Assembly: GCF_000003815.2 (NCBI RefSeq)
Contig: NC_049991.1
Location: 12,754,470 to 12,818,469 of the forward strand
DNA from: Branchiostoma floridae
Taxonomy: Eukaryota; Chordata; Leptocardii; Amphioxiformes; Branchiostomatidae
Reading direction: 5' to 3'
DNA: 64,000 nt
Part shown: positions 305-52,056 of the stretch, piece by piece
How positions within the stretch are numbered: the first letter of the stretch is position 1
Layout: each line of letters starts with the position of its first letter
Translations under genes and position numbers: made by a program
The notes under the pieces: model-generated
What the model was told of the DNA's origin: nothing
What the model saw: only the letters and a program-made list of their open reading frames with translations
The model's database searches: none

Positions 305-3300
305 TCAAGGCTGAAAAAGAAAGACATTTCAATGAAGAAAGTGATGGTACATGTACTACAAAAAGAAAGCAACAATGAAAATCAATGTTTATCTAAACAG
401 AACATGATATGCATGACAGAAAATGGCCAACAAGATGAAATATACTGTGGTTGTAAATTCTTGAGTTTATGAGGGTGCACATGGGCACTATAACTTACCT
501 CACAGACGACGGGGCTGCCCTTGGTGTTGTAGAAGACAGCCTGGCAGCTACCACAGTAGTTGGGGACGCAGACGGCGCCGGGGTAGGCCGGACACGTGGT
601 ATACCGACAGGGGTCGACAAAGCACTCCACAAGGGGCTCACCATTAGGGCATGTCTCTGTGAACAGGGAGGGGAACAGAGTAATGGTAAAGAGGATTCAG
701 TTACTCTGTACAGTACAGCAAATTTATCATTCAGGTTCACTTTCTGTCATATATATGATTGTACAAATCAAGCAGCATTTGTTTTTTCAATGTTTGAAAT
801 CAATGTTTTAAAATTGGAGCATATCATGCTGTTATAAAATATACTTTTTTTAGCCAAATCCTTCACACTTTCAATCAAATGAGGAAAAGGATGAAAACAA
901 TGAATTATTGCAATCAAAATATGGAGTTTGATATCTAGGAAATTGACATTGCATTCAGCCTTAGCATTTCCAATGAAGTGCTCTTTTTTTACAGCAATAT
1001 TTCCTTGTTAAGAGAATATTTTCTGCTATTGAAATAGGGAGTTATGTTGTAGTAGCCTATGTGACTCACCAGGCTCAGGTGTTGTGTAGGGGACAGTTGT
1101 GGTCTCAGTAGTCTGCCATGGGCACACTTGGTCCCTGGGGCACTGCCACTCACCCTTCTTACAGGTGCTGCAAACACAGAATTATGGTACAGCCATTGAA
1201 GGTATATATCAAAAAGGTGCTTAGTATAATTTTTCCACAGTGATAAGATACTCATCTTTTAACCAGTACAGTTTAATTGATTGTTAAGTTTAAGTATAAG
1301 TATATCTGTTTTACATACATAGTGCTGGCATGGTTTTCTGACAAATAAAATACAAGACTTATACAGTCATAAACATGTAGTAGTATGCAGTTCCAGTGCA
1401 TGTACTTACCAGTCCTTATCAGTCTCACCATGGCGGAACTTCTCCCCAGTAATGGGGCTGTAGCAGAACTCTGCAAAAAAATACTCCATTTAAACAAAAT
1501 ATATCCAGCTTAAGGTCGGCATGAGCAATACAAGGTAACCTGGGTATCATCCGATTCCTACAGGGGCTACTTGCACTCGCTACCCTAAAAAAGTCTATGG
1601 GGTAACGAGTTCAAAGAGGCCTGGTAGAGATTGAGAAACTTCAATTTTTCAAACATATCTTTAAAAGTTTGCACAGAAGGCCTACTAACTTAAAGGTTCA
1701 TTGATGTCACATTCTTTTTTAAACTGTAAAAAATTACAATGTTTGTCATAAAGTTTAAGTGAAAGTAAAGGTATTGTACTGAGGATATAGTAAGAACACT
1801 TACTCTCACTGCAACCCTTGCGGGTACAGGAAACACGGCCGTTGGTGCAGGTACTGCAGAGGAGGAAAAAAACAATATTTTAGAAAAGGTGGCACAGATG
1901 TATTCTATCAACATTGAATAAAAATCGAGTATGTGAATGCAGGTGCATTCAAGTCAATCAATGATCTGTGCTTTTATATTATAATAATTGCAATTCAAAT
2001 CATGTGTAAAGCAAACTCTCACCACTTGTTGCAGCCCTGGAAGAACCTCTGGCCACTGTAGTACACACAGCCATCAACAGTGCAGGTTTCCTGGGGCTCT
2101 GTGGGAACATGGAACAGATGCCTCATCTATGACTATCCTGAGGGAATAACTTTGATACCTGATATTTTCTTCGTATCAACATCAGAATTAAGTCAACATT
2201 TTGACTGGTGTGGTAAGAATTAAGTCAACATTTTCACTGGTGTGGTAATTTCATCTAAAACCTAACATTGGCATTGACTTCATAAAGTCTCAAAGTCTCA
2301 TTGTTTTGGTATCTAATCTAGCATCTTTCATCTGATGATCAGCAATAATACATTTTGGATCCCACTTGTCACACAAATAAATCAATGACCAAAAACCTAC
2401 TGAATGGTGGCATATGGTGATGGATTAGGGAATTGTAATGAAACGTTATACCCACCAGTTATCTTCCTGGTGCGGGGGATGGGCTTGGTGGTGATGGGGG
2501 TGGGGCGGCACATCCTCTTAGTGCACATCCATTCGCCGTCCGGTGCACACTTGCTGCATTGAAAAAAAACTTATAGTTGATAAATCCGGCACCTTTAACC
2601 TTCTATCTGCTGAATGTCACATATGGCAAATGCAATGACAAAAGACTGCTGAACTATCTGTCAGGCACTTTTGTAACAGTAACACAAAGGTTAGATTATA
2701 AACAAATGAAAAGTGCACAGCTGGTTCTTCTTGTCAGAATTTATTCTCATCATTTCACTTTTCATTGTAACCTTCTCTGATATTTTGACACCGCACTAAT
2801 CCAATTTTGCATGTAGCAACATTTAGCAGCAATTTTATCTGTCAATGATGCCTGCAAATGATTGATTGATGAAATGGATGTATGGCTAGAATGGGCATCA
2901 AATTTTCATTGAATGATGGTATATGTATGACAGACTCCTTGATTATGTTACTCACCACTTGTTGCAGTCAACACGGGCAGACTGCTTGGGCCTGTAGACC
3001 ACACCAGTGAAGGGGTGGTAGCACTTGTCTGTGGGGCAGGTCTTCTTGGTGCACAGGGTCACACCATCCTTGCAGATGCTGAGATTTAAAAAATGGGGAG
3101 GAGGGCAAGGAGTATGAAATATTGTTTTGTATTCATCTATTCAGTTTTCCAGAAAGAAAAATTTTGAGAGGAGCCGGCAACAGGAATTTCCTCTGCAAGG
3201 CCAGCTCCTTTATCTATGGATTCTACCAAGTTGAACACAGATGACTTTTCATTTGAAACTTTGCTTTTTGTCATGATATTCACCCAAGTAAAAAGAAAGA

Positions 3301-5529
3301 TATGACAAAACTTTAAAAAGAAAGTTGATTGACTGAAGTTACATCTGAATGAAAAAATTCTGACCCTCATCAAATGAGCTTGATAACAGGTGGTTGGTAA
3401 ACATAAAAAGATGTTGTGTTGAAAATTCAGGTACATACCACTGGTTACACCTGACAAAGAACTCCTGGCCAGGCTGGTAGTAGGTGCCATTGACGTAACA
3501 CTGGGTCACTGCATAGAAAATGTAATGTAAGGCTTAATCGACTTGCTGCAACAATCTCTCACACGACTATGAATACTATATCAAATTCCATTAATTTCTA
3601 CATATGGAACAGCGTCCTTGCTGTATCTGCACTCTAAACAGTTGATTATATATATATATATTGTTATTTGATATATTCATGAATTGGTTTTTATTATTTG
3701 GCACACTGAACATATTACCAATGTGACATGATAAAGCTGTCCTTACCAGGGGTGGTGTAGGGGGTCCTGCACTCCCTCTCCTCCTTGCACTTAAGCTGGC
3801 CCTCGATGCACTTGCTGGAAGAGATAGGACAAAGACTTGCTCAATGGTTCATCATAAATGTTTATCATTCATTATTTACTGAGCATATAGTACATACTGT
3901 ACAAACTAAGACTGCCCCTATGGCTACCTGAGCTATGGGGCTGATGGATAAATGGATGGACTGTAGTTTAACATATATCAAGTGTCTGTAGGCTTCTCAT
4001 TCATAGAACTCTGTTTGCAGTCACAATATCTAGTAGCATTTTGAAAGATTCCATTGTATGCATGTTGTGTTTCATAGCCCGTGACCTACCAGGACTTGCA
4101 CTGCACAGAGATCCTCTCCTCCTCATAGACCTTCTCACCAGTAGTGGGGTGGAAGCACACATCTGGTGGGGAAATAAGACATTTACCTAACCTTTATGTA
4201 CTAAGTCACTCATGTTTTATTTCTTCATGATATATCAAATGTCTTAAACCTTTGGATGCATTTTGTTCTACCTTAAAAGTGCTTTAGACAGAATTGCAGA
4301 ATGTTAGCGAGTTAACGACAAAGGAGACAGATGCTCACCACGGGGGCACTTCTTTGTCCTGTCCTCACAAGTGTACTCTCCGTCCTTGCAGATGCTGAAA
4401 TAAAGAAAAGATAAAGTTGATTTAAGGTATGATCCTAGTCAGACTAAGGACTTCTGGGGATGTCTTGGAAATGCTACTTAGTATTATCTATGGCTCTTGA
4501 TATTTTTTCTGTAAAATACTTTTAATAACTGGAACTACAGATCAAGCTCTGGTGAAGAATAAACTATGAGAACAACATAATGGGACATGTTTTCAATAAC
4601 ACTTCACATACCACTGGCGGCAGCCATAGAAGAACTTCTGGCCAGACTGGAAGGTGAAGTCCTTGATCTTGCAGGATTTCTCAGGGGTAGTCTCTGGAAA
4701 AGGTTAAACAACAACTTCAGTCCTTAACTTCCAGCTTTTCAAAAAAATGAGTGTTTATATATGAAATAGCCAGACTTTATCAAAGTTTTCAAACTTGGCA
4801 CATTGCAAATCTGATACATGATGATAAAATGGCAGGTGGTCGGTCTACGTCTGTAGTGTTTCAATGTAATGGTGCTTGGAAGGGTAGCGGTTACAGTTGA
4901 AAGGTACTAGTGACTAATGGTTACTCACCTGGGGTGCAGGGCTTTGCAGGGCAGGCTGGGAAGCCTTCGCGGCAGACACTGAAGAAAAGAAGGGAAAGAA
5001 TAGTTAAAAAGAACAAGTACAACTCAAGGATGGATCACAGAAATCAATTTGAAATTTTCATTCAACTCCATGCTATTTTAGCTTGTGCTACTTACCACTC
5101 GTTGCAGCCATCATAGAAGGTCTCGCCCTCATAGTAAGTCTGGCCCTTCACAACACAGGTAGTGGGCACGTAGGGGGTGGCTATGGGGGAGAGCAAAACC
5201 TGAATTACAATTCTCTGACTGACAAATCTGAGACAACATTAAAACCATGCAGTTTATTTCTCCATGTCTGTAAATTTCCAGCTACATAATTTGGTATTCT
5301 AATATCCAAAGATTCCAAAGTACATACTCATGGTGGGCTCATAGGTGGTAGTCTGGGCGGTGGTGGTCTCACAGAACTCCTGCTGGGAGCACTTCCAGCG
5401 ACCCTCACTGCAGGTGCTGTGAAGGGAAAGTCAAAAGGCATCAATGTCGCATCTACAAATCCTGTCAATGAATGAAGTAATATTTCACAGAAACACACAC
5501 ACACAAACACACACATACACACACATACA

Positions 5530-8500: not shown

Positions 8501-11500
8501 AGCAATGTTGTAACTCACCACTGGTGGTGCAGGGCAGGATGGTGCACATGGTCACTCCCTGGTCACAGATACTGCAGGAAAAAAATGTGATTATAGTTTC
8601 CAATTGAAAATGATTGTCTATTTGTATTATTCTTCAACTGTTAATGGACGTCTGCAGTAGTAACAATTCTCAAAAAGGGGTTTGCAACTTTAAAAAGGTT
8701 TTTTTAGGACATAGTATGTAATGTAGAAAAAAAGTCTGGAAGTAACCAGTATGTCTGTACCCACCACTTGTTGCACTCCTGGTAGAAGGTCTCACCCTGC
8801 TTGTAGACGAAGCCATCAACAATGCAGGAATCCTCAGCAACAAACTTGCGGGCTGAAATAAGATGATTGTAATGAATAAATAGTTTGAAACGCTAGAAGC
8901 AGATCAATCTTATATCTAATCTGCCCTGTCATTGACTTGGCTATCCATTATAATGGTTGCTGAATTTTTTGTATGGTCATGTTTTTCTTTTGCATAAATA
9001 CTATACAATGTACCCGGTATTTTGAACAAGATGGGTGGTGCTACAGAATTTGGTCTATTGTCAATGAGTAATCTCCTGAATAAAAGATGTGAAGAAGCAA
9101 TCTTATCTCATCAGAACTATTATGTCAAGCCTGAGGATAAGCTATGAGTTACGTACTGATGTAAGGGGTGCAGTCGGGGGTGGTTCCCTTGGTAACAGTG
9201 CCGTGGATCTCATCTCCCTGGGGGGTGACGCAGTAGCAGATCCTCAGGTCGATGTTGCACTGGATGGGGTAGAAGGTGCCGTCGGGCTTGCAGCGGGGGC
9301 GCACAGTCCTGAACACCTGCAGAATTACATGGCAAATACAGTAGAAGACAGTTAATTGCACAATGGATTACCACACACTTCTGTTAATTGCATGGAATCT
9401 AAAATCCCGTGGTGGTGCGGTTCAGTTGGATAACTAATTGCTTTGTTGCACCACCGGGATAAATGCACGAAATATACTGGCAAATGGCTTCTACTGTATA
9501 AAAACATTGTTATTCAAACAAGTTTCATTCCAATCGTAGGAATGATATTTGGTGATGTTCTCAAAAGCTTTTTGTCTAGTTCATTCATGGATGAATGGGG
9601 AAATAAAAAACTACATTGTTAGCAAAAGTCTAATTGAGTTCAAAACTTGGTGTTGAATGTCCAGCATGCTGATACATAAAAATGTATGTATAAGTCTTCA
9701 CAAAACGAACCTGAGGAAGAGTCTCAAAAATCTCCAGCTGGTCCCAGCAGTCCAGGTAAGGGGAGGTGGTGGTGTACTCGGTGGTCTGGGTGTACTCTGT
9801 GGTGGTCTGGGGAGTGTACTCGGTGGTGGTCTCAGGGGTGTACTCAGTAGTGGTCTGGGGAGTGTACTCAGTAGTGGTCTCGGGGGTGTACTCAGTGGTG
9901 GTGTAAGGGGTGTACTCTGGAAAGTGGTACATACAAGATGACTGACAAATCTTATGAACTAATATCAATGGTAAGTAACTTTATGCTCATGTTCACTTAC
10001 TATACTGGGGTTAATGAAATTTTGCTCATCAATACATCTCCATCTTAAAACCTTAAAGTCCATAGTTTGATAGCTTGATGATAGAGAACTATAATTGCGG
10101 AAAAAAACAATTTATGAACATTTCTTAACACGTTATACATTATGTCAAAGATATCATTTATGACTGCTCAGTACTGCTTTACAAGTTTACAAAAATACAC
10201 TGAATGAGATGATCTATGATTATGCAGAGTATGATAATGCAGTGTAGTACCAGTGGTGGTGGCGTAGACAAAAGAGCAGTCGGGGATGTCGACACCGAAG
10301 ACACGGGTGCCGGGGATCTCGTAGCCCTTGGGGGTGGCACAGAAGCAGTACCCGTAGGTGTCGTGGCACTGCAGGGGGGCGTAGCTGCCGTCGGGCTCAC
10401 ACATGGGCAGGAAGTGTCCGGGGCTGGGGATGTACTGCCTCTGCTGGATCACACAGGGGGTGGGGGAGCAGGTCTCGCACACACACTGGGGGGTGGGGGT
10501 GGTGCACTCCTCACCCTGGCAGAGGGAGGGGTCGGGACACTCCTCACACACGCAGGGGGTGGGGGTAGGGAAGGGGGTGGTGCACTCCTCTCCCTCACAT
10601 GGGGTGGGGGTGGTGCATTCCTCTCCCTCACATGGGGTGGGGGTGGTGGTAGGGTAGGGGGTGGTGCATTCCTCACCCTGACAGGGGTAGGGGGTGGTAC
10701 ATTCCTCACCCTCACAGGGGTAGGTGGTGGTGCACTCCTCTCCAACACAAGGGGTAGGGGTAGTTGTGGCTGGAGAGACAGAAGAAAGAAACGCTGTAAT
10801 TTATCTTTGACTTTCACGAAACAAACTAATCCTTTGCTTAGATAAATGTTGAGTAACAAAGTGAACATACATGCACATACATGTAAACCAGTGGCAACCC
10901 CCACATTACCTTTATGCCCAAACTATATATACTTATACTGTATCTATGATATATAGCCACAGTAGCTTCAGCTACTTATGTCTACTTACTCATCCAGTAA
11001 GTGTCACAGTCAGGCACGGTCCTCTGCTCGTAGACCTGGAACATGGACTCCCTGTACATGACACCCTTGACGGGGTGGACACAGTAGCACACATCCTCCT
11101 GGCACTGCAGGGGCTCAAAGGTGCCCTCCTCCGTGCACTTGGGAGTGAACTTGCCACGGCTGTACTCCCTCATCTCCCAGCACTTAGGGTCTGAGAATCA
11201 AAGAAACATGACCAATGAAGTTGTCTGAATCTAAAAATGCATGGTAACTTATTTGCTGTTTTGTTATGTTGATTTGCTTGCTGTTATACATCCAAGGGGG
11301 GAAACAGGAAATTAGGAAATATTTGTATCTCAATTAAGGTTCTTCAACACTACTTGTAAACAGACAGCTTTGAATTCACTCATGTTTGTGGTTATTCTGA
11401 TACAGCTAAATTTCCTTCTTGTATTTTAAATGCTTTAGATGGGCTGTCAAAGTTGATCAGAACTTCTGTATTTCTTTCCAGCTACCAATGGACACAAAAT

Positions 11501-14500
11501 TTAACACTTGTTGATACTTACAGGGAGTGGTCTGGGTGTACTCTGTGGTTGTAGCAGTGTACTCGGTGGTAGTGGCAGTGTACTCAGTGGTGGTCTGAGG
11601 GGTGTACTCAGTGGTGGTGTAAGGGGTGTACTCGGTGGTGGCTGTTTCAGAAAAAAAGGAAGTTAGTCCGGCATTCCATATAACGGCCTCATGGCTTGCT
11701 GAACAACTCAGTTTATGTAACACGAATTCACAATTTTGTTATTGTTGATTGGTGTAAGGGGTGTACTCGGTGCCGGCTGTTCCAGAAAAAAAGATCAGAA
11801 GTTGATTTGCCATTCCACATAATGGCCACATGGTTTGACGAACAACTCAGTTGATGTAACACAAATTCGCATTTTTTTTTTAAATCTTGATTCTTAGACA
11901 GAACGCTTGTTTATGACATTTGCTTCGAGATGGTTACCATCTAGCTTGATGAATAACTGTTACAGTTCTACGTACAAACATTTGCCAAGGTTTAGGATTG
12001 TGTTCTTACTGCAAAAGCGCCAACTAAATCGGCTACATATAGTGGCAAGAAGCAGAACTCCAGTTCGAAGCACTGAGGAAGATGTCTGACAGACATCAAA
12101 ATGTCAGCACGTGAGAGACATTCTGGTTGTACAAAAGTAATCTCCAATAATTCCTATGTTCTACCAAGCTGATGAAATTATTTTGGGAAGTTCTGCGTAC
12201 TGTAGGTGGTGCAGTCAGGAGTGCCCTGTCTGAAGTGCCTGACGGTTCCCCTGATCTGGAAGCCGCGGGGGTCCACACAGTGGCAGTACTTGGTGGTGGG
12301 GTCACACTGCAGGGGGGCAAAGGTGCCGTCAGCCAGGCAGGTGGGGGTGTAGTGGCGGGGCTGGTTCCTCACCACCTGCAGGAGCTTCAGGCATGGGGGC
12401 ACCTCGTAGTCAGGGTACTCAGTGGTGGGGGTGGGGGTGGCTGAGGGAACAAGATGGCAGATAACGTCATTAAAACTAATTATCAATAAGAAATCTGAGA
12501 AAAACACTTTTTTCTGAGAATTAAGACTTAGTAACGGTAAGTTTAATGGGCACTAAAATAAGGTTCTTAATCTTTACAGTTCTTCATTTACCTTATCTCC
12601 TCCTCAACATATCAATTATTTGCACTCTCGTTTCAGAAAAAAAACGTGTTCTTGCTGTAGAAACTGGAGCAACTGATCTCCCAGGTCGTAGGTCGCATCT
12701 AATTAAATGCTTTGACCTTTGCCCAAACCTTCCCCATTACTAATTTGATTTCCCTACAGGAAGTAGTTTTGGCTTGGTTTGGTTATACAGATCTCCATTT
12801 GTGACTGATATGTCACTATTCTTCCTGGAGTCCAGGTGATTTGTGGAGAATCACCAATTCTACACGGAAGGATTTGCACCATCTCACACCGCACCATCGC
12901 ACGTGTGGGAGTTCTTTAACGTGCCTGGGGTATGGCTCTCCCCATACACGGGACCTCCATTTAACGTCCTATCCGAGGGACGGCCCTAGTCGAAGCTAGG
13001 TACTCATTTTCACCTGAGTAAAGTGAGGAAAGTCGTGTAAAGTGCCTTTCCCAAGGGCACAAGATCGGTGACACGGCAGCCGGATTCAAACCCACAACCT
13101 CTCGGTCACGGGCCGAACATGCTGCCGCTGCGCCATGCGGTCCCACAGATGTACACAGTAGTTAGTACACTGTTTCTGTATAAGAGTTTACCTATAGATA
13201 AGGCAATGTTTTTCACTATTTTCTACACACCATAGATGTACTCCTCGCAGTTGGGCTTCTCCTCCCAGGAGCGGACCAGAGTCTCGGGGATGATGGTGCC
13301 CTCGGTGGGGGTGACACAGTAGCAGTAGCGGCTGGTCTTGTCACACTGCAGAGGCTCGAAGGTGCCGTCCTTCTGACAGGTGGGCTTGGTCTGGCTGCGG
13401 CTGCGCAGCTCGTAGCACAGAGGGGAGGGGGTCCCAGTGGTGGTGTACTCGGTGGTGTAGGGGGTCACTGGGGTGGTGGTCTCTGTAAAAGCATATAGAA
13501 TGTTTATTGTAATTCTCATAAAACTTCAACATAAAACCATATTAATAGAATGAGTTTTCAAAGCAATGGATTTAGTAAAAAAAACTGTGATACAACAAGA
13601 CCATAGCATATCCAGGTCAAAGGATACAAAAAATGGTATTTCTGCTGCAGTACCAAAGTCACATACCAGTGGGCCCAAAATTGGTCTTGACCTTCATCTT
13701 CCCAACACCTACTCACATACCAAATATCATCTGTAATCCATTCAGAAGTTCTTGAGTTATGCTGACTACAAAAATCTGGAAACACAGACAGACCAAGGAG
13801 CTTTTATCAGGCTGATAAAAGCTCATTGGACAGCGCACAGACAGGCACACCCACAGTTATTCTACATTTTTCATGGAGATGATTTAATAGTTATATCTAT
13901 CTTCTGCTGCTCTGACTTTGAGTGTTCCTTCTCATTTGCAACAATATCGGATATGCATAGTGCTGCCAGTCTGTTGCTGTTATCAAAGAGTTGACCATGA
14001 ACATACCGAAGAAGGGGGTGCAGTCAGGCAGGCCTTGGCTGACGTGCTGCTCGGTGCCCTTGATCATGTAACCCTCCTGGTCCACACAGAAGCAGTAGCC
14101 GTTGGCGTGGCACTGGGTGGGGTGGTAGGACCCATCAGCCTGGCGGGTTGGCGGAAACGGCTGCCCGGTCGGTCGGCGGAAACCGCTGCCCGGTCCGGTC
14201 CGGAGGTTAGTTTTGGGGGTTTCGGGTATTGCATACAGCAGTGTAAGTGAAGTAAACAAAATGCCTGCTTAAATATTCCATAACGGTTGTTAGATGTTGC
14301 TACATGTTCAAAGGAAGCTGGCCAAATTACTTATCTTTAAAAAAAAAATTAATTTGACATTTCTTGGTAAGATTGTCCCATCCCCAGCTGCTACTTAGAA
14401 CGTCCCCCAGTACAGAACATCAGAAGTTCGCTACGTCAAGGTTGGTCAGAGTGGCGGGTCTTTGATCTAGTATCATATGTACCGCGGGCGCCGGCGACAA

Positions 14501-17500
14501 ACCAATCAATTTTGACAGCACTACCGGGCCGAGCTGTCTGACATGTCTGAGGAGAAACTATCTCTTAAGAACTGTAAAAGAATTCAAATTTAGTTAAATT
14601 AATACTAAAATGTACATTTACAAATGCATGGATTAATTTTTTTTGTGTCAGATTCTGGTTTAAACTAATGTAGTCAATTATATATTAATTATGTGCGATG
14701 TTTTCACATAATTTTGTTACTTCACACGAAAACAGCTCCACCGTAGTCTTTTCAACATGAATGACTCATACTCTGATCAATGCCCACATCTTATTTGTCT
14801 AAAGCTATTCCGAAGAACAATTAATAATAAAGTTTACTACTGTCCCTATTAGAAGTGCCTCACACATATCCACGTGGCCACACACACTGCGTATTTTGGG
14901 GTCAACGACCTAACTTTAATATGCGCTGCATGGAATGCCGAAAACTTCCGATGAATCAAATCAATCCAACCTACAGTTTCCCATTTCAGAGTACATGTAT
15001 ATAAATACAAAATTAGTGTTGGGGATTACATTTTTGAAAAAAAAATCAAGGCGCTAATCATGAGTGCCAGGTATACAGTTCTCGAACAGGACCTTCGTTT
15101 CTGTAACCTCTACTCGAATACCAAAAAGCATTAAGTTCTTACAGTGAGGACACGGCGCGGCTCATTATCGGCAGCACTGAAATCTGGTGTTCACCGAAAA
15201 CATTACGCCGTGTTTGCGTTTTCGAATTTCCGAAACTATGGCAATGTTTGCGATATTAGTACTACTGTAATTTGTTGGGTCAGCCTACATGAGAAATGCA
15301 CTTAAATTACTCCTGCGATAGCAAGCCATCTTGTTTATATTTGGTATACTCGAAACCCCCAAAACCAACCTCCGGACCGGACAGGGCAGCGGTTTCCGCC
15401 GACCGACCGGGCAGCCGTTTCCGCCAACCCTCAGCCTGGCAGGTGGGCACGAAGCCACCGGGGAAGGTCTTCCTGGTCTGGAGGAGCCTCAGGCAGGGGG
15501 GAACAGTGGTCACACCTGTGGTGAAAAAAAAAAGAAGACTTAAATCAAGGACGTTGCTTAAATGTCCTAGGATATTTGATCTTGTAGGCCAGCTGGGAGA
15601 AAGTTAGGTAACATTATGAAACTAAGATGACGACACAAAAAAAGGGAGATGAAAATATTCAATATTAGTAACGTTACACATTTTGAAAGTAAGAATATTT
15701 TGTGAAATGTGAGAGATATAATTATTCATACAATTATCCATACAATTATACAGCCTAACAACATTATAATGCTATAAAATGGTGAATACGAGTACAGTAA
15801 ATCAATTTTGATACAAAAAGGTAATATTACATGTTGAATGACTGAATTGTCATTTAAATGATTGAAATATAAACAAATTCAAATCTATTTGCTGGGGCAA
15901 CGTCGGAAGGCAAAACGTTTTAACATGTGAAGGTAGGACATTGCCACTCACCCTCAGTAGTGTAAGTGCTGGACTCGGTGTACTGGGTGGTGGTCTCAGG
16001 GGTGTAGGGAGTGGTGGTCTCGGTGAAGGGAGTGTACTCGGTGGTGGTCATGTACTGGCTGCAGTCGGGGTAGCCGAAAGTCAGGGTATCTGGAGAGACG
16101 GAGAGAAGACGCAAGTTTTTGAGCAAATCTCGTAAACATCTTCATGTCTTGGCAAGCTAGTTTTTGACCTTTGACCTCAGCATCTTGGTCCTGATTACCC
16201 AAATATTTGTCATACTTTACGCTTAACGATATATGTCACCGTCGAACCGTTACAGTTTTATACAAATTGAAAATCGTAATGTTAGTTTATTCAACTTTCT
16301 GTTTATTCTGTGTATTGCATGTATCTACATGTACTTCATAGTAAAATATAACAGACTAACGTTACATAATTAACATACCTGAGAATATTACTTCAATATG
16401 TTATGTCATATTATGTTTGACATATATGATGTTAGTGCCTACCCTTGATGCGCTGCCCAGTGGGAGTGACGCAGTAGCAGACACCCAGTTCCTTGTGGCA
16501 CTGCTCGGGCTGGTAGTAGCCGTTAGGCAGGCACTTTGGCGGGAAGGTTCCCTTCAGCTGGCGGCTGCCGGTCTGGTACTTAACCAGCTCTTGGGTGCAG
16601 GGGCCTGGGATAGCAACAAAACTTAGTGTTAAATTTCTAGGCATTTTGAGACTTAAATACGAATTCTCCACCAATTTACAAATGAAAATATCACTTTCAT
16701 GAGAAGTCATTATGAAAGATAATCATTCTTTTTAAGAAAACTTAATCAGAGGTTAGGTCATGTGAGCTTGGTATACCAACGTTCCGGTAAATGACTTACC
16801 AACGGGACGGCAAGGGGTCGTAGAGCACTGGATGATTCCAGCGTTGCAGGTGCTAAATAATGAGTAGATAAGTGTTGGTAAAGAAACAAATCTTCTTATC
16901 TTCAGCATACAACATAACGAACAAAATTACATACACGCGCGTTCTGCCAAAGTAACCAAACGTTGGATCTATGCAGCATGACACAAGCAAAATTTTCATG
17001 AAATTTTGTTGAGAGCAACAGTCATCATTGCAGCAGCGCAGTGCATACAGAACAAATACATGTAGTAAGAAAACACAATACATCTTCAGTGCCATTTATC
17101 AGGAGTATTGACAAATGTTATTTTACCAGATGTTGCAGTCCTGAGTGAAGATCTCGCCGGCGCGGTAGGAGGTCTTGGTGGTGCGGTTGTAGCAGGTGGT
17201 GTGGGTGGGGTAGGGCACCTCAGGGGCGCAGTACTTGCGGGTGCAAGACCACTCACCATCGGTACAGATGCTGAAAGAAGTAAATATTCTTTTTCAAAAT
17301 TTTTAAAAATGCAAGAAAGACAGAGCTGTAGAAAAAATCTACAAAAACCATCAAAGAATTACTTAGACTTGCTTCCATTGCTCAACAATCGCACAAGGTA
17401 CAGTGTAAGGCAACCAATAACAACTACTAGCTATATATAGACAAGACTACGAGGCTACATACAGAACAACATGATATTATCGCTAACAGTGACATGACAA

Positions 17501-37345: not shown

Positions 37346-38628
37346 CCTTACTTTAATTTCTCTATGAACAATACTGTAACTGCAAATAGAACTTTTGCAA
37401 TGTGGTGGTAATTATCACATGACCTAATTAATATACTGAGCTTACAGTGAAGGATACTGAGGTGGCACATAGGTAGCCATCCTTGTGAAGTTAACATTCA
37501 GGAAGTGGCATCTATCCAAGGGGACATAAGCTCACCAGAACTGTTGTATAACCAATGATATTCACATAAGCGTATGTTACACAATCTCTTGCTGCCATGG
37601 GGTAATTGTCTAGAGGCTGAGCAGACAGGTGGGCTGCTAGTGTGACTTGGTGCAACATGTTATTATCTAGTCCACCTGTTAATTCTCCTAGATATGAATG
37701 TCTTCACCAGGCTAATCAGCATAACATTATTCACCTGCATGGACATTTCTGGATACCTAAAATGTGATGGTTACATGTTTCAGTGACCCTGAAAACAAGT
37801 CACTCTTTGACAGAAACCTTTTCGCCAAGTCCCAATCTTATTTTAAGTCTCTGCCTCTCTCCTCTCCATTCTTTCCTTCATTAGAGAATTACTTGTTCTA
37901 CATTCTTTCAAGATTGAAGAAACAAAATTTTCCTGTTTTGCTAGAATATGAGTTAGCAGGTTTGGACATATTCAAGTCTTAAATGGGAGTAAATCAAGTT
38001 ACTCTGCCAGTATGGGGCCTGCATACTAATGAGGCTCAGGTTGAACCTGGCATTATAAAGACACCATTCACCTGGCCTCAGGCTTCTACATATGATAGGA
38101 TTTCCATTGTTCTTTTTGCAACGTGTCCTACACTCCTTGGCACACCTGCATTCTTTCACACACCTTCATTTTTTTATCCTAAGTCCTGTTGGTGCCGTGT
38201 CTTATAATTACTGGTAAGTTCGTGTATGTTATAATATCTGCAGGTACACACACACACAACACACACTGTGACACACACACTTGAGGTTTGAGGAGTACAT
38301 GTTGACATATGAGAAAATAACAATATTTTGCCTCTCTGTGTGTGGCCTTGTTGATTACACAGTTATTTTGTATATGTATATTAAATGTATATTCCACAAG
38401 ATGGCTGACATGGTATTTCCAGATATGAAGCTTTTTATTTTGCATGTGACTTTCAATAATTGAAGAAAATTGTAGTCATTGTCAGTGGTAAGTCTGTCAG
38501 TGTTTTATATTTTTTTTTCACTTTAGTCCCAGAAAGTTTGACATCACATATTTCTTTTGTTTAACTTACAGAACCAGAAATCAGACTCATAAGACTACAG
38601 ATTGATCGTTCCCATCTTGCCTACCATC

Positions 38629-41600
38629 ATGGCACACCCTCAGCATGCCAAGCTTCTAGCCATCGCTCTGCTTGTCGTGGCGGCTCTCCCTCCATGCCTT
38701 CAGCAGTCCTTTCACGACATTCCTCTTGTCAGCGTTCAGTCAGGAGAAGACATACCTGCCGAACCCCTCGGCAAGGAGGGTAGCGCAAAGCAAGGTTTTG
38801 ACGTCTACCACGATTACCTCGTCATCGGCGCTGGCCTCGTCGGGGCTGCAGATGGGGTCTATCTGGAGCGGGCGGGACGAGACTACCTGATCCTGGAGCG
38901 TGGGATGGGCGCGGGAACATTCTATACGCAGTACCCGCGCCACCGCAAGCTGATCAGCATCAACAAGCGCAACACGGGCAAGACCAACAAGGAGTTCAAC
39001 ATGCGGCACGACTGGAACTCGCTGCTCAGCGACGACGACAGTCTGCAGCTCCGACACTACTCCAAGGAGTTCTTCCCCCCGGCGGACATCCTGGTGCAGT
39101 ATCTACACGACTATGCCACCAAGCTGAAGCTGAAGGTGCAGTACAACACTAACGTGCAGGGGGTGTCCAGGGTGGCCAACCACTCCGCCATCGCCAAACA
39201 TCTCTTCATTCTGCGCGACCAGGCAAACCGCACATACGCATGCCAGTAAGTAACACTGTTCTGATGATTATAAAGACTTTTTACTGCTTCTTACTTAGGC
39301 CTTTGCTTTAAAAAAAATTAAATGGCAATAAGCACATTGTACCTGAGGTTGTGCGAAATTGAAGTAATGGCCCAGGACCGCCTAGGGTGGCGCCGAATGG
39401 TGTGGAAAAGATGCCAATGCCTTGATGCAGGCCATTCACCAAGCTGAGGAGACCTTACCAAGTATCAAGTAAAAAAATAAGTACTGTATATATCCGGTAG
39501 CATGATTTTGAATTTGAATGCATCAATCTTTATGTGTATTCCATGATGACCTTTAGGCTTATGTACAACATGTTCCATTGTGGTGACTATTACATCAACA
39601 ACATTTCTACCACTTGCCTACATGTTACCTAAAGCCAGGACATTCATTAAGCAACACTTCTTATGTAAGTCTAAAGGCAGGTGGTGCTTTTCCTATCCTT
39701 CCCACGCTGCGAGCTGTCTGTTTTATGAAAGTGTCCTTGTGGGAGAGACGTCAATCCTTGTTGCCATGGCAACGCAGACTAATTTGAGAGAAAAAAAGCT
39801 TCAAATTTAATTAAGGAATGACTTCAGGATACCTGTGTCCTTGGAAGGTAAACACTGTGGGAACATAGAAATGAGTATGTGTATATTGGAATTATAATGT
39901 CAACACTTAGTCCTCGGGCCCTTTAATTACTAAGACCCAGCCACCTCCCCTTGTGGCAGTATTTTTCAGTAGGAATGTGTACAGTATGTCAGTAGGTGGT
40001 GGTTTATGCTGATAAAATGGTTCTATTGCTCTTACTTAAGACAAACAACTGCTCTGGTCCATGGGAGCTCCTCAAATAGAGCGGCAAAATCTAATTTGCA
40101 GTCTGGGGCGTGTGACGCCATATTTACCTTGCCCAGCAGCAACTGTTAGTTTTGTGCACTCTAAAATACACTGTAACTTGTGTAAGGAACTAAAAGTTTT
40201 GTGGTCATGTTTGTCAGTACATGTTTTTGTATTTACAAACAGGCTTGGATATTGATGGGCTGATTCTAATATTGCAAGAATAATTCTTATGTATTATTGA
40301 TATCATACTAGTAGTTTGTCTGGGGTATATGTCAAATGGTGTACTGAAACCTTTCTTAAGAAACTGTCACTTAGATGGATAATGGTAGCCCTTGTGTAAA
40401 TATTGTGTGTATACTAGTATGGCCCACTGTCAACTTCACACACATGGATTATAAAAGGTGGAAGTGTGCTGTACGGGGGCTAAAACAAACTATTTACATT
40501 CAACTCAGTTCACTACCTACTATTTGCAAGCTTCCATTGTTTTGTGTCTTAAAGTTAAATACTTTGGAAAATGTGGTACTGTATAAAGAATTCATATTTG
40601 TACATGTAGTTAAAAATTGTACCATGTGAAATCAAAACAAAATTCAAATCCTATTTTGAAAACAAATCTCAAAGTCTATTTTTTGAGTGCTACCACATTC
40701 ACTGCTGTTTCAAAATAAAGAAAATAAGACATAACATTATCAATAAAATGAGCATTTTTTTGTTCAAGTACAATATAAAAACATGTACAAAATATACTAG
40801 TATTCAGTTTTTGTTACTGGCAGAAAAGTGGTTCAAGTTTGAATTACAAAACAATGTACTGAAAACATTTGAATGAAAGAGTAAGATATTCAGAAAAACA
40901 ATTTCCTTGGTCATTTGAGACTTGAGTTGAGAAGTCAAACCCAATAGAACATGGTCAGGGGTATAGTTTTGTTATACACTAAGAAGTCAGCTTTTTGCAT
41001 CAACGATTTGTCAGTGAATTTTAGCTGTTTATCTGGTTCCGTCCAATAACCTTAGGAGAGTCCACACAATCGTAACCAATGGAATAAACAACACACACAC
41101 AGGTTTCAAAACTGGAATCATACACTGAATTTTATTCACAACTACAAACATGTACTACATGTATATAGAACAAGATTGAAGTGAATTGTTTTGTTGTGCT
41201 CTTGTCAGAACCCTGATCGTGGCCACCGGAGTCTGGGTCCCCAACGTACCCAAGATGCAAGGCCTGGAGCACACCGTGGGGTACGAGGACATGTCGCTGG
41301 ATCCGGAGGATTACGAGGGGAAGACCGTTCTGATCCTCGGGCGCGGGAACTCTGCCTTCGAGACGGCCGACCACATCATGCACGCCACCAACCTGATCCA
41401 CATGTTCGCCCGCAGTCGCGTCAGGCTGTCATGGGCCACGCACTACGTCGGAGACTTGAGGTAATAGCCAGGAACATTTTTACTGAAACAGTCAAACCTG
41501 TACAAGTGCCAACCTCATTATGAAGACCACCTTGCCAATGTAATCACCAAATATGGTGATCCCTTAAAATAACTTTTCCTATGGATACAAGCAATCATGT

Positions 41601-49594: not shown

Positions 49595-50017
49595 CTCCAT
49601 CTAGCACTTTCATTGAGCATTGAGACCGCTGACGTAATACAGTGATTGATATATGAACTTTCAGTTTCTTGATAGTCTTGAATGACACTTCTCATGTGCG
49701 TGGAATATGCTAGATCTAAGACCTTACCGCCAAAATGTTCAACCATACTATAAATGTACAAGTCCCGGCAATGGACACAATTTACAGTGTAAAGTTTTAC
49801 TAAACAATAGTTCATGGGAGCAACTTGTCTTTAGAATGAATATTCATTGTTTGGTTTCTCGCATCTTTTTGATCGGTCGTTTTGACTTTTGGTTCTGCCG
49901 TTTTGATTTTTGCATGCTGTAAACAAATTATAACATAATTTTTTGGGAAAGATATATACTTCAGTTACTGTAGTAACTATATGTTATAGCCTACAAATGT
50001 ATGATCACGTATCTCAC

Positions 50018-52056
50018 CTGAGTGTCTGTAAGCCCGATCCTCTGCGCCAGCTCCTGCCTCTCGGCCGCTGCCAGGTACTTCTGCGTCTGGAACCGTTTCT
50101 CCAGCTGGAACACCTGGTACCCCGCGAAGGCCGTGCGGGCCTTGTTCTTGCTGGAAGTCTTGTCGTCACCGCTGTCGTCTCCATCTATAGAAATGGAATA
50201 CAATAAATTAAAGTCAGCAAAGACAAAACAAGTGAACTATTTGATCTATCGATCAGAAAATATTCGTAGCGTTCAATCCTACATTAAATATACAAAAATC
50301 ACTTCATGAAAAAAAATACCAAGTACCAAAGATACTTCTACCATTCATTTTCCCCAGTTTTATCCGAAAGATGTTTTCTCTCATTCAGAACCACTTTTTG
50401 CCAAGTATCGTTTGTAGATTATCATGTTCCGCCATCTCTTATCACTTTTGTACGAGAACATCTTCAAAGTCTGTCATGTCACACTAATTATAAAGTATAA
50501 AATGAAAACGTTGCATATTCATAACCATGGCGTCTGAGTCCTGACGCCAAGACGGTCTCGGACCCTTCTCAAAAGTCTGTCGCCAGGGTCTAGTATCTGG
50601 ACCCTCCTCGCTAATTTATGAGTCTGTACCATTTAACTTATCTTAGCATTATTCTTTATTTATAACACAGAATCTAGAGAAGGCACCCAAAAGTAAAAGA
50701 TAACGGAAGAATAGTCGTTTTGTACTTGTATTTGCATTTCGTCGACCTTCATAGCCAATAGTTCTTTTCTTTGCCATGTTTTGTGAAGAATGTATGCACG
50801 ATTTTTAGATAGAATTTCCTTTAAATGCGGGCTTTATTTTTGCTTTATTTTACGAAATGGACCGTGATGATGTTATTTGTGTTCAGTTTTATTCTAGCAA
50901 TGAAAACATTTTGGTAGCGAAGTTATGTTGAAGAAACTTTCTTGTCTAATTGAATTGATTTCTAAAAACTTTCTAAGAAGGTAATCCCTTTATGTTCCAA
51001 TCAAGCCCATCAAAACACTCCAGATTGTAAAAGCAAACAAAAGGCAGTAACATTGTTTTAAAGAGCAGCAATTCTCACGAATTACAGGCGCCACCCATAT
51101 TTATCCTAATACAAAGAATTTACGGGCATTGCCATTAGTTTCTTTTTGTACATGACGAAAATGGTAATTTTGTTTGGCTTGTGCCATACAACTACTAGTA
51201 CATGACGTTGTTATGTGGCACAAACCAAACAAAATCACAATCATAGTACTGTTTAACGTTGTACCAATGATAAAACTCCTGGGTTAGACTGATACCGTTT
51301 TTAAGTTTCTAGAAGAATAAGACATAATATGGAGCGATCTATTCATTTGATTCACGAAACTAACGAGTTTTTGTCTTGAAAATTGCAGACTTGCATTTTT
51401 CTGTATCGTAAGTGGTATGTCATGTATGTAGCGGGGTTAAGTTTTCAAGTTACATAAGCACTTATTCAAAATGGAGGGAACATACATCTTTGACAAGAAA
51501 AGCGCCGAGGAAAATTGGTATGAAAGCGGAAAAATTTTCTCCCTGTAGAAGTTTGTTTCTTTCAGTTATAAGTTAGTTTAAAACTTGCAAAAGAACAAAA
51601 CTTCGGATAAATACCTGACGACGCGTCCCTGTCTGTGCTGTCTGCTTTTCCACTTGACTTTGGTGAAAAGTTGTTTCGGTTCTTCTCGGCATCTTTCGGA
51701 GCGTTGTGTCCCTCTCTATCGGGTTGCCTCGCCTGGTCCTCCTCGCAGTCGCTCGCCGACTCCCAGGGACGCTTCAGACTGACGGTTCCGGTGCCATACG
51801 CCCCGCGCCCCGCATGAGCGACGGAAGGCGCACGGTGAGTCGTTCCCGTGGTGAAGTCTCTCCTTTCGTGCTCACCGGTGACAGGTCCGGAACTTGCGGG
51901 ACGATAGTGCAGCGTGCCGACCCCGCTGTGATGCTTCGTCGGAGGAGCAAAACCGAGATCGAAACTTCTCTGTAGCGTCATGGCGTTTTGCTCTACTTGT
52001 ATCTCGCGAAGCTTTGCAGGAAAGTTGGTCTGACCACGATTCTGATCAAACAACAT
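50018..52056 (-). CDS. NK-like (ANTP-class) homeobox protein, 3' end missing
   Basis: Exon 1 is 51615-52056 (first ATG at 52056; a second, better-context ATG lies at 51981-51979). Exon 2 is 50018-50184. Phases match (G + AT = Asp). Exon 1 gives a low-complexity, charged N-terminus ending ADSTDRDASS. Exon 2 gives an acidic stretch (DGDDSGDDK) and homeodomain residues 2-44: KARTAFAGYQVFQLEKRF, then KYLAAAERQELAQRIGLTDT and Q44. The donor falls exactly at homeodomain position 44/45, a known intron site in several NK-like and Dlx-type genes. Helix 3 (WFQNRR) was not found on the minus strand down to 46900. Resemblance is to Tlx, Lbx, Bsx and Barx families; I cannot choose among them. A nuclear DNA-binding transcription factor. 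Confidence 0.85.
51166..51235 (-). repeat. Hairpin in intron 1 of the homeobox gene
   Basis: Arms 51166-51192 (aattttgtttggcttgtgcc...) and 51210-51235 (...ggcacaaaccaaacaaaat) pair over about 22 bp with few mismatches and a loop of about 17 nt. The shape fits a small foldback element and also a pre-miRNA. Confidence 0.55.

Follow-up and report, generated by a model that had tools for sequence, protein, structure and literature searches.

The 64,000-nt stretch of the Branchiostoma floridae genome analyzed here (hereafter, the window; part of contig C13 in an assembly of 513 Mb and 431 contigs) carries seven thyroglobulin type-1 (Tg1) units on its minus strand, at positions 9152-16604. Six of them are intact, and the exon of the seventh is cut in two by a 1,286-bp insert (14145-15430) that looks like a non-autonomous transposon of the Mutator-like (MULE) type. 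All seven units scored over the cut-off of the Tg1 profile PF00086, the split one through its 3' half only (43.6 bits, cut-off 20.6). The 27-aa 5' half gave no PF00086 match on its own, its sole row being an unrelated profile below cut-off; the two halves are connected by the reading frame and by the target-site duplication (TSD). The solved chains nearest to the 3' half were thyroglobulin, as the best match, and then saxiphilin (11 distinct sequences in PDB at E values up to 0.01).

Threonine-rich linkers also lie around the Tg1 units, and close to them are an EGF-like piece (EGF_2, 23.4 bits against a cut-off of 22.1) and a pacifastin-like piece (27.5 bits, just below the cut-off of 27.9). 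Their common order, strand and phase suggest that the units, linkers and both additional pieces form one gene, which probably resembles part of vertebrate thyroglobulin. The features at and around the split exon are listed in Table 1.

Table 1 The interrupted Tg1 exon, its neighbors and the inserted element (window coordinates).
Feature	Position	Strand	Remarks
Upstream Thr-rich exon, phase 1-1	15952..16089	-	
Tg1 exon, 5' part	15431..15515	-	acceptor at 15515; flank 15431-15960 occurs once in the genome
Target-site duplication, copy 2, TCAGCCTGGC	15431..15440	.	
Terminal inverted repeat B, 85 bp	15346..15430	.	82/85 identical to repeat A
Non-autonomous TIR transposon, 1,286 bp	14145..15430	.	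apparently MULE-type, by target duplication and end structure; 136 related genome ends, control 0
Terminal inverted repeat A, 85 bp	14145..14229	.	25-bp unit twice in tandem
Target-site duplication, copy 1, TCAGCCTGGC	14135..14144	.	
Tg1 exon, 3' part, with CFCV motif	14007..14144	-	donor after 14007; PF00086, E 2e-11
Downstream exon, Thr-rich linker and Tg1, phase 1-1	13231..13482	-	PF00086, E 1.5e-11

The first-pass annotation of this DNA, made from the letters alone, had described a 1,286-bp element with 85-bp terminal inverted repeats (TIRs) and a 10-bp target duplication inside a Tg1 exon, and this description was borne out. The two TIR arms (85 nt each) are 96% complementary (0.965), and the direct duplication flanking the element on both sides, TCAGCCTGGC / TCAGCCTGGC, matches at 10 of 10 positions. 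A 20-base end motif, allowing up to three mismatches, occurs four times in the window, in each case within the element, with a chance expectation of 0.00. The annotation had put the junction between Cys-Gln-Ala and Asp-Gly; on the 5' side, however, the exon in fact breaks within the Asp codon, two bases in (GCT GA), and the full codon is restored on the 3' side of the insertion by the target duplication.

The insertion would enlarge the exon from 213 to 1,509 nt. Reading into the element from the 5' half was predicted to meet a stop after about 40 codons, and the frame indeed reaches 15310, 40 codons past the junction codon, before it meets one. The exon ends, as read from the sequence, give the split exon phase 1-1, and the flanking exons (16089-15952 and 13482-13231), both also phase 1-1, can be joined in frame without it, as had been proposed.

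A search with the TIR scored 40 of 130 candidates. To place the element in a family, a 26-base end pattern (up to two mismatches) was searched in the whole genome, with the reversed pattern as control. The pattern occurred 71 + 65 = 136 times and the control 0 + 0 times. Ends were paired within 6 kb among 100 listed of the 136, and the 42 resulting pairs gave copy lengths of 783-2,312 bp, a range unaffected by two mismatched pairs on contig C6 that arise from a nested copy (L040). Thirty-nine distinct copies, including the one in the window, were examined after a spurious L040 pair (2419-4001; true pair 2755-4001) had been dropped. TSDs of 9 or 10 bp with at most one mismatch were counted by hand in 35 of these 39 (21 with 9 bp and 14 with 10 bp). 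Mismatches between paired TSDs numbered 6 in 329 bp (about 1.8%) without copy L034 and 9 in 338 bp (2.7%) with it. At 1,286 bp, the window copy can be at most a non-autonomous member of the family.

Some of these copies are peculiar in themselves. L018 and L021 lie on the small contigs C221 and C219, carry an element of the same length and are 100% identical over 921 bp, with differing flanks; L021, which has no target duplication, is perhaps a recombined or misjoined copy. L040:2755-4001 (C6), with a 10-bp duplication, seems to have landed in a second member of the family. L012:2973-4001 (C5:17757955-17758983) lies inside an open frame, ...GGWLASYEQFVGITEVKHAQGKVTQ..., which is perhaps an exon, may recall CCDC51 and gave no Pfam match. 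When the empty site was reconstructed in 30 sibling copies, most had a spanning open frame of at least 45 codons, but such frames may arise by chance and so say little on exon insertions among the siblings. No Pfam match was found in seven pieces from four sibling copies with such frames.

The family as a whole looks like a non-autonomous, Mutator-like one, judged by TSD length and end structure. A passage of PMC6446971 gives 8-11 bp as the span of MULE TSDs, a range into which the TSDs of 35 of the 39 copies fall. The TIRs are long at 85 bp, yet below the hundreds of bp described there as common in MULEs. A DDE transposase of the MULE type was not found within the elements: eight open reading frames from six copies gave five rows below cut-off, none of them a transposase (the window copy's own frames were not scanned separately). 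In the genome at large, the MULE transposase domain PF10551 had 27 matches, all over cut-off and four with stops (for example, C2:20560291-20560575 and C13:5001006-5001290). Several lie in long open frames, the best of them in one of 1,384 codons.

Certain counts tell against this reading. Four of the 39 copies have no clear 9-10-bp TSD (L018, with a 12-base match inside a tandem repeat; L034, with three mismatches in nine; L021; and L038), and 16 of the 100 listed ends are without a partner in the list, so that a longer copy may exist. Not one of the 100 listed ends has a PF10551 match within 200 kb; the nearest of the 27 matches is 204,784 bp away, and three are on contigs without a listed end. 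Given this distance, the MULE label draws on TSD length and end structure, and an autonomous partner was found neither among the pairs of listed ends nor near the 27 transposase matches.

The closest known parallel is with non-autonomous MULEs such as the Muta1 derivatives of Aedes aegypti, as described in part of PMC5225508. They likewise have long TIRs that carry tandem repeats close to their ends (subterminal tandem repeats are reported there for Aedes MULEs) and many short copies that have common ends and differing interiors, and their TSD length also varies by one base within the family; the TSDs are 8-9 bp there and 9-10 bp here. The amphioxus family differs from MULEs in its short TIR of only 85 bp with two 25-bp units, in the missing autonomous partner, and in its host. 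The 2019 survey PMC6446971 failed to confirm the MULE transposases previously reported from B. floridae and describes the evidence for MULEs in chordates as limited. A B. floridae genome with 27 MULE transposase-domain matches, whether in mobile elements or host genes, together with what appears to be a young MULE-type family, contrasts with that part of the survey.

The first-pass annotation had taken the 82/85 TIR identity as a sign of recent insertion, and this argument did not hold. In a sample of 22 copies chosen for their likeness to the window TIR, among which L018 and L021 nearly duplicate each other, the ends within a copy had a mean identity of 0.942 (sd 0.020), no higher than that of ends from different copies (mean 0.942, sd 0.026, 924 pairs), of which 24.2% reach 82/85. 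The same differences between one end and the other are common to six copies (L016, L017, L019, L022, L023 and L026), indicating that a newly inserted copy inherits its TIR differences and does not begin with identical ends. Insertion of a DNA transposon involves no copying of both ends from a single template, so the identity between them is no clock, and dating by TIR identity was rejected.

We compared the copies by an alignment and tree of 21 of them over their first 607 nt. Eleven copies lie 0.3-0.6% from the consensus, which these eleven dominate, arguing that the family moved recently. The window copy itself stands apart, and the following observations speak against a young insertion. It groups with L013 (support 0.874), outside the youngest group, on a terminal branch of 0.031 (3.1%) that is longer than those of that group. 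Its nearest aligned copy is 5.8% away, it has 14 private substitutions in the 607 nt, and of 210 candidates for its interior, 40 were scored, which gave only one other unbroken match over the whole length, at 86% identity. A copy outside the youngest group and with no close sibling could be old and fixed. Among the same candidates, L060, a partial copy, matches 169 nt of the interior at 98% identity and another part at 86%. The copies are thus mosaics, for which any single age is approximate. Because an element that moves by cut and paste does not have to leave a sibling behind, 3.1% is an upper bound only, and the insertion age is between 0 and about 3%.

This bound is of the same order as the allelic divergence of amphioxus, for which a passage of PMC12500494 gives a heterozygosity of 3.2-4.2%; the TSD divergence of the family (1.8%, or 2.7% with L034) is below that range. 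Against this heterozygosity, a segregating insertion is quite possible, and more possible still since, as stated in part of PMC12373286, 41 resequenced samples show 10.3% of the B. floridae reference to be dispensable; the same text describes the reference as not haplotype-resolved. It is plausible that the filled site in the window is one segregating allele. A search with the 5' flank (15431-15960) for a second allele found one place in the assembly, the window itself, which counts against polymorphism.

This single filled site, the 3.1% branch and the lack of a close sibling among the 21 aligned copies would all be expected if the insertion were instead old and fixed in the species, with the exon dead and the gene permanently without this Tg1 domain. 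The perfect 10-bp TSD fits such an age as well, since, by our own arithmetic, about half of such duplications would still be perfect at a divergence of 3% per lineage. We nevertheless regard long fixation as unlikely. Both parts of the exon are open, the acceptor and donor are in place and the 3' part matches PF00086 well, a state less likely to persist through a long unconstrained period; moreover, the branch length is an upper bound for the reason given above, and L060 is 98% identical over its 169 nt (86% elsewhere).

The filled site could also come from an assembly error that fused two unrelated stretches. There are five 100-N gaps in the window, and haplotypes are merged in assemblies of such heterozygous animals. 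No gap falls within 13,000-16,300, however, and the exact TSD at both edges together with an intact TIR pair is what an insertion predicts, as in 35 of the 39 copies. We consider an artefact of this kind highly implausible.

The element could be partly removed as an intron, from a donor in the TIR (15369) to an acceptor in the duplicated target (14139), an in-frame splice that would lengthen the Tg1 domain by 22 residues. This pair was the top scorer (donor 5.0, acceptor 3.0) of seven splice pairs that keep the frame and are free of stops. The donor lies within the TIR, and in 53 of 64 in-silico placements of 32 other copies in both orientations the score was as high or higher. The sites are weak all the same: real donors nearby score 5.8-10.0 and real acceptors 6.4-11.0, an equally good score was obtained in 14 of 200 Markov-chain shuffles, and the element in reversed orientation scores 10.5. 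All scores are based on generic site frequencies, not trained on B. floridae. The low scores, the shuffles and the other-copy placements doing as well make intron-like removal a weak rival, which we hold to be very improbable. Precise removal by a GC-AG splice was rejected, its donor scoring -5.5.

Such removal would recall the introners discussed in part of PMC9860276, in that the exon contains a TIR element and the duplicated target offers a possible splice site. It differs from them in the weak splice sites, in controls that do as well, and in being known here from sequence alone. That a MULE-type element has become a new intron, with its donor in the TIR, its acceptor in the TSD and 22 extra Tg1 residues, as an introner-like event in a chordate, is likewise very improbable.

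Given the phase 1-1 of the exon and of its neighbors, the outcome most likely to be tolerated is that the exon is skipped in full. At 1,509 nt it would be large for an internal exon, and the gene would probably tolerate losing a single self-contained Tg1 unit out of seven in a row. Most likely, then, this haplotype would skip the exon and lose one of its seven Tg1 domains; that this step is predicted from phase and exon size is a point against the overall account.

Taken together, we think it fairly likely that a non-autonomous MULE-type transposon sits in the Tg1 exon and breaks it, that the exon is skipped, and that the allele is segregating. The element would have been moved by a putative transposase supplied from elsewhere and would have entered one of the Tg1 exons of this multi-domain gene, duplicating 10 bp. 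The exon is thereby broken on this haplotype, where the unspliced frame runs for 40 codons to a stop. The whole 1,509-nt exon would be skipped, with its neighbors joined in frame to give a protein with one of seven Tg1 domains fewer. The insertion is real and, as a single case of a non-autonomous transposon entering an exon, ordinary. If it segregates, comparing animals that have the extra Tg1 domain with those that lack it would offer a natural test of the role of that domain.

The gene concerned may be the thyroglobulin-like gene already discussed for amphioxus. In PMC3464141 (2012), the amphioxus protein XP_002607132 is described as thyroglobulin-like and as having six Tg1 domains, and an unambiguous amphioxus thyroglobulin is said not to be known; a 2026 review (PMC13078365), in its passage on such thyroglobulin-like proteins, calls their orthology not demonstrated. 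The window locus is likewise a long gene with many Tg1 units (six in XP_002607132, and six intact plus one split here). It may be the gene of XP_002607132, for which the Tg1 count is suggestive; to the left of the window, part of the sequence is masked.

Downstream of the exon at 13482-13231, positions 13000-13145 of the minus strand resemble, by eye, a tRNA-derived repeat, in which ARAGORN reports no tRNA gene. Elsewhere in the window are part of an oxidoreductase of the flavin or pyridine-nucleotide type on the plus strand (38593-39246; PF13738, E 5.4e-13) and a homeodomain exon on the minus strand (49994-50236; PF00046, E 1.2e-12).

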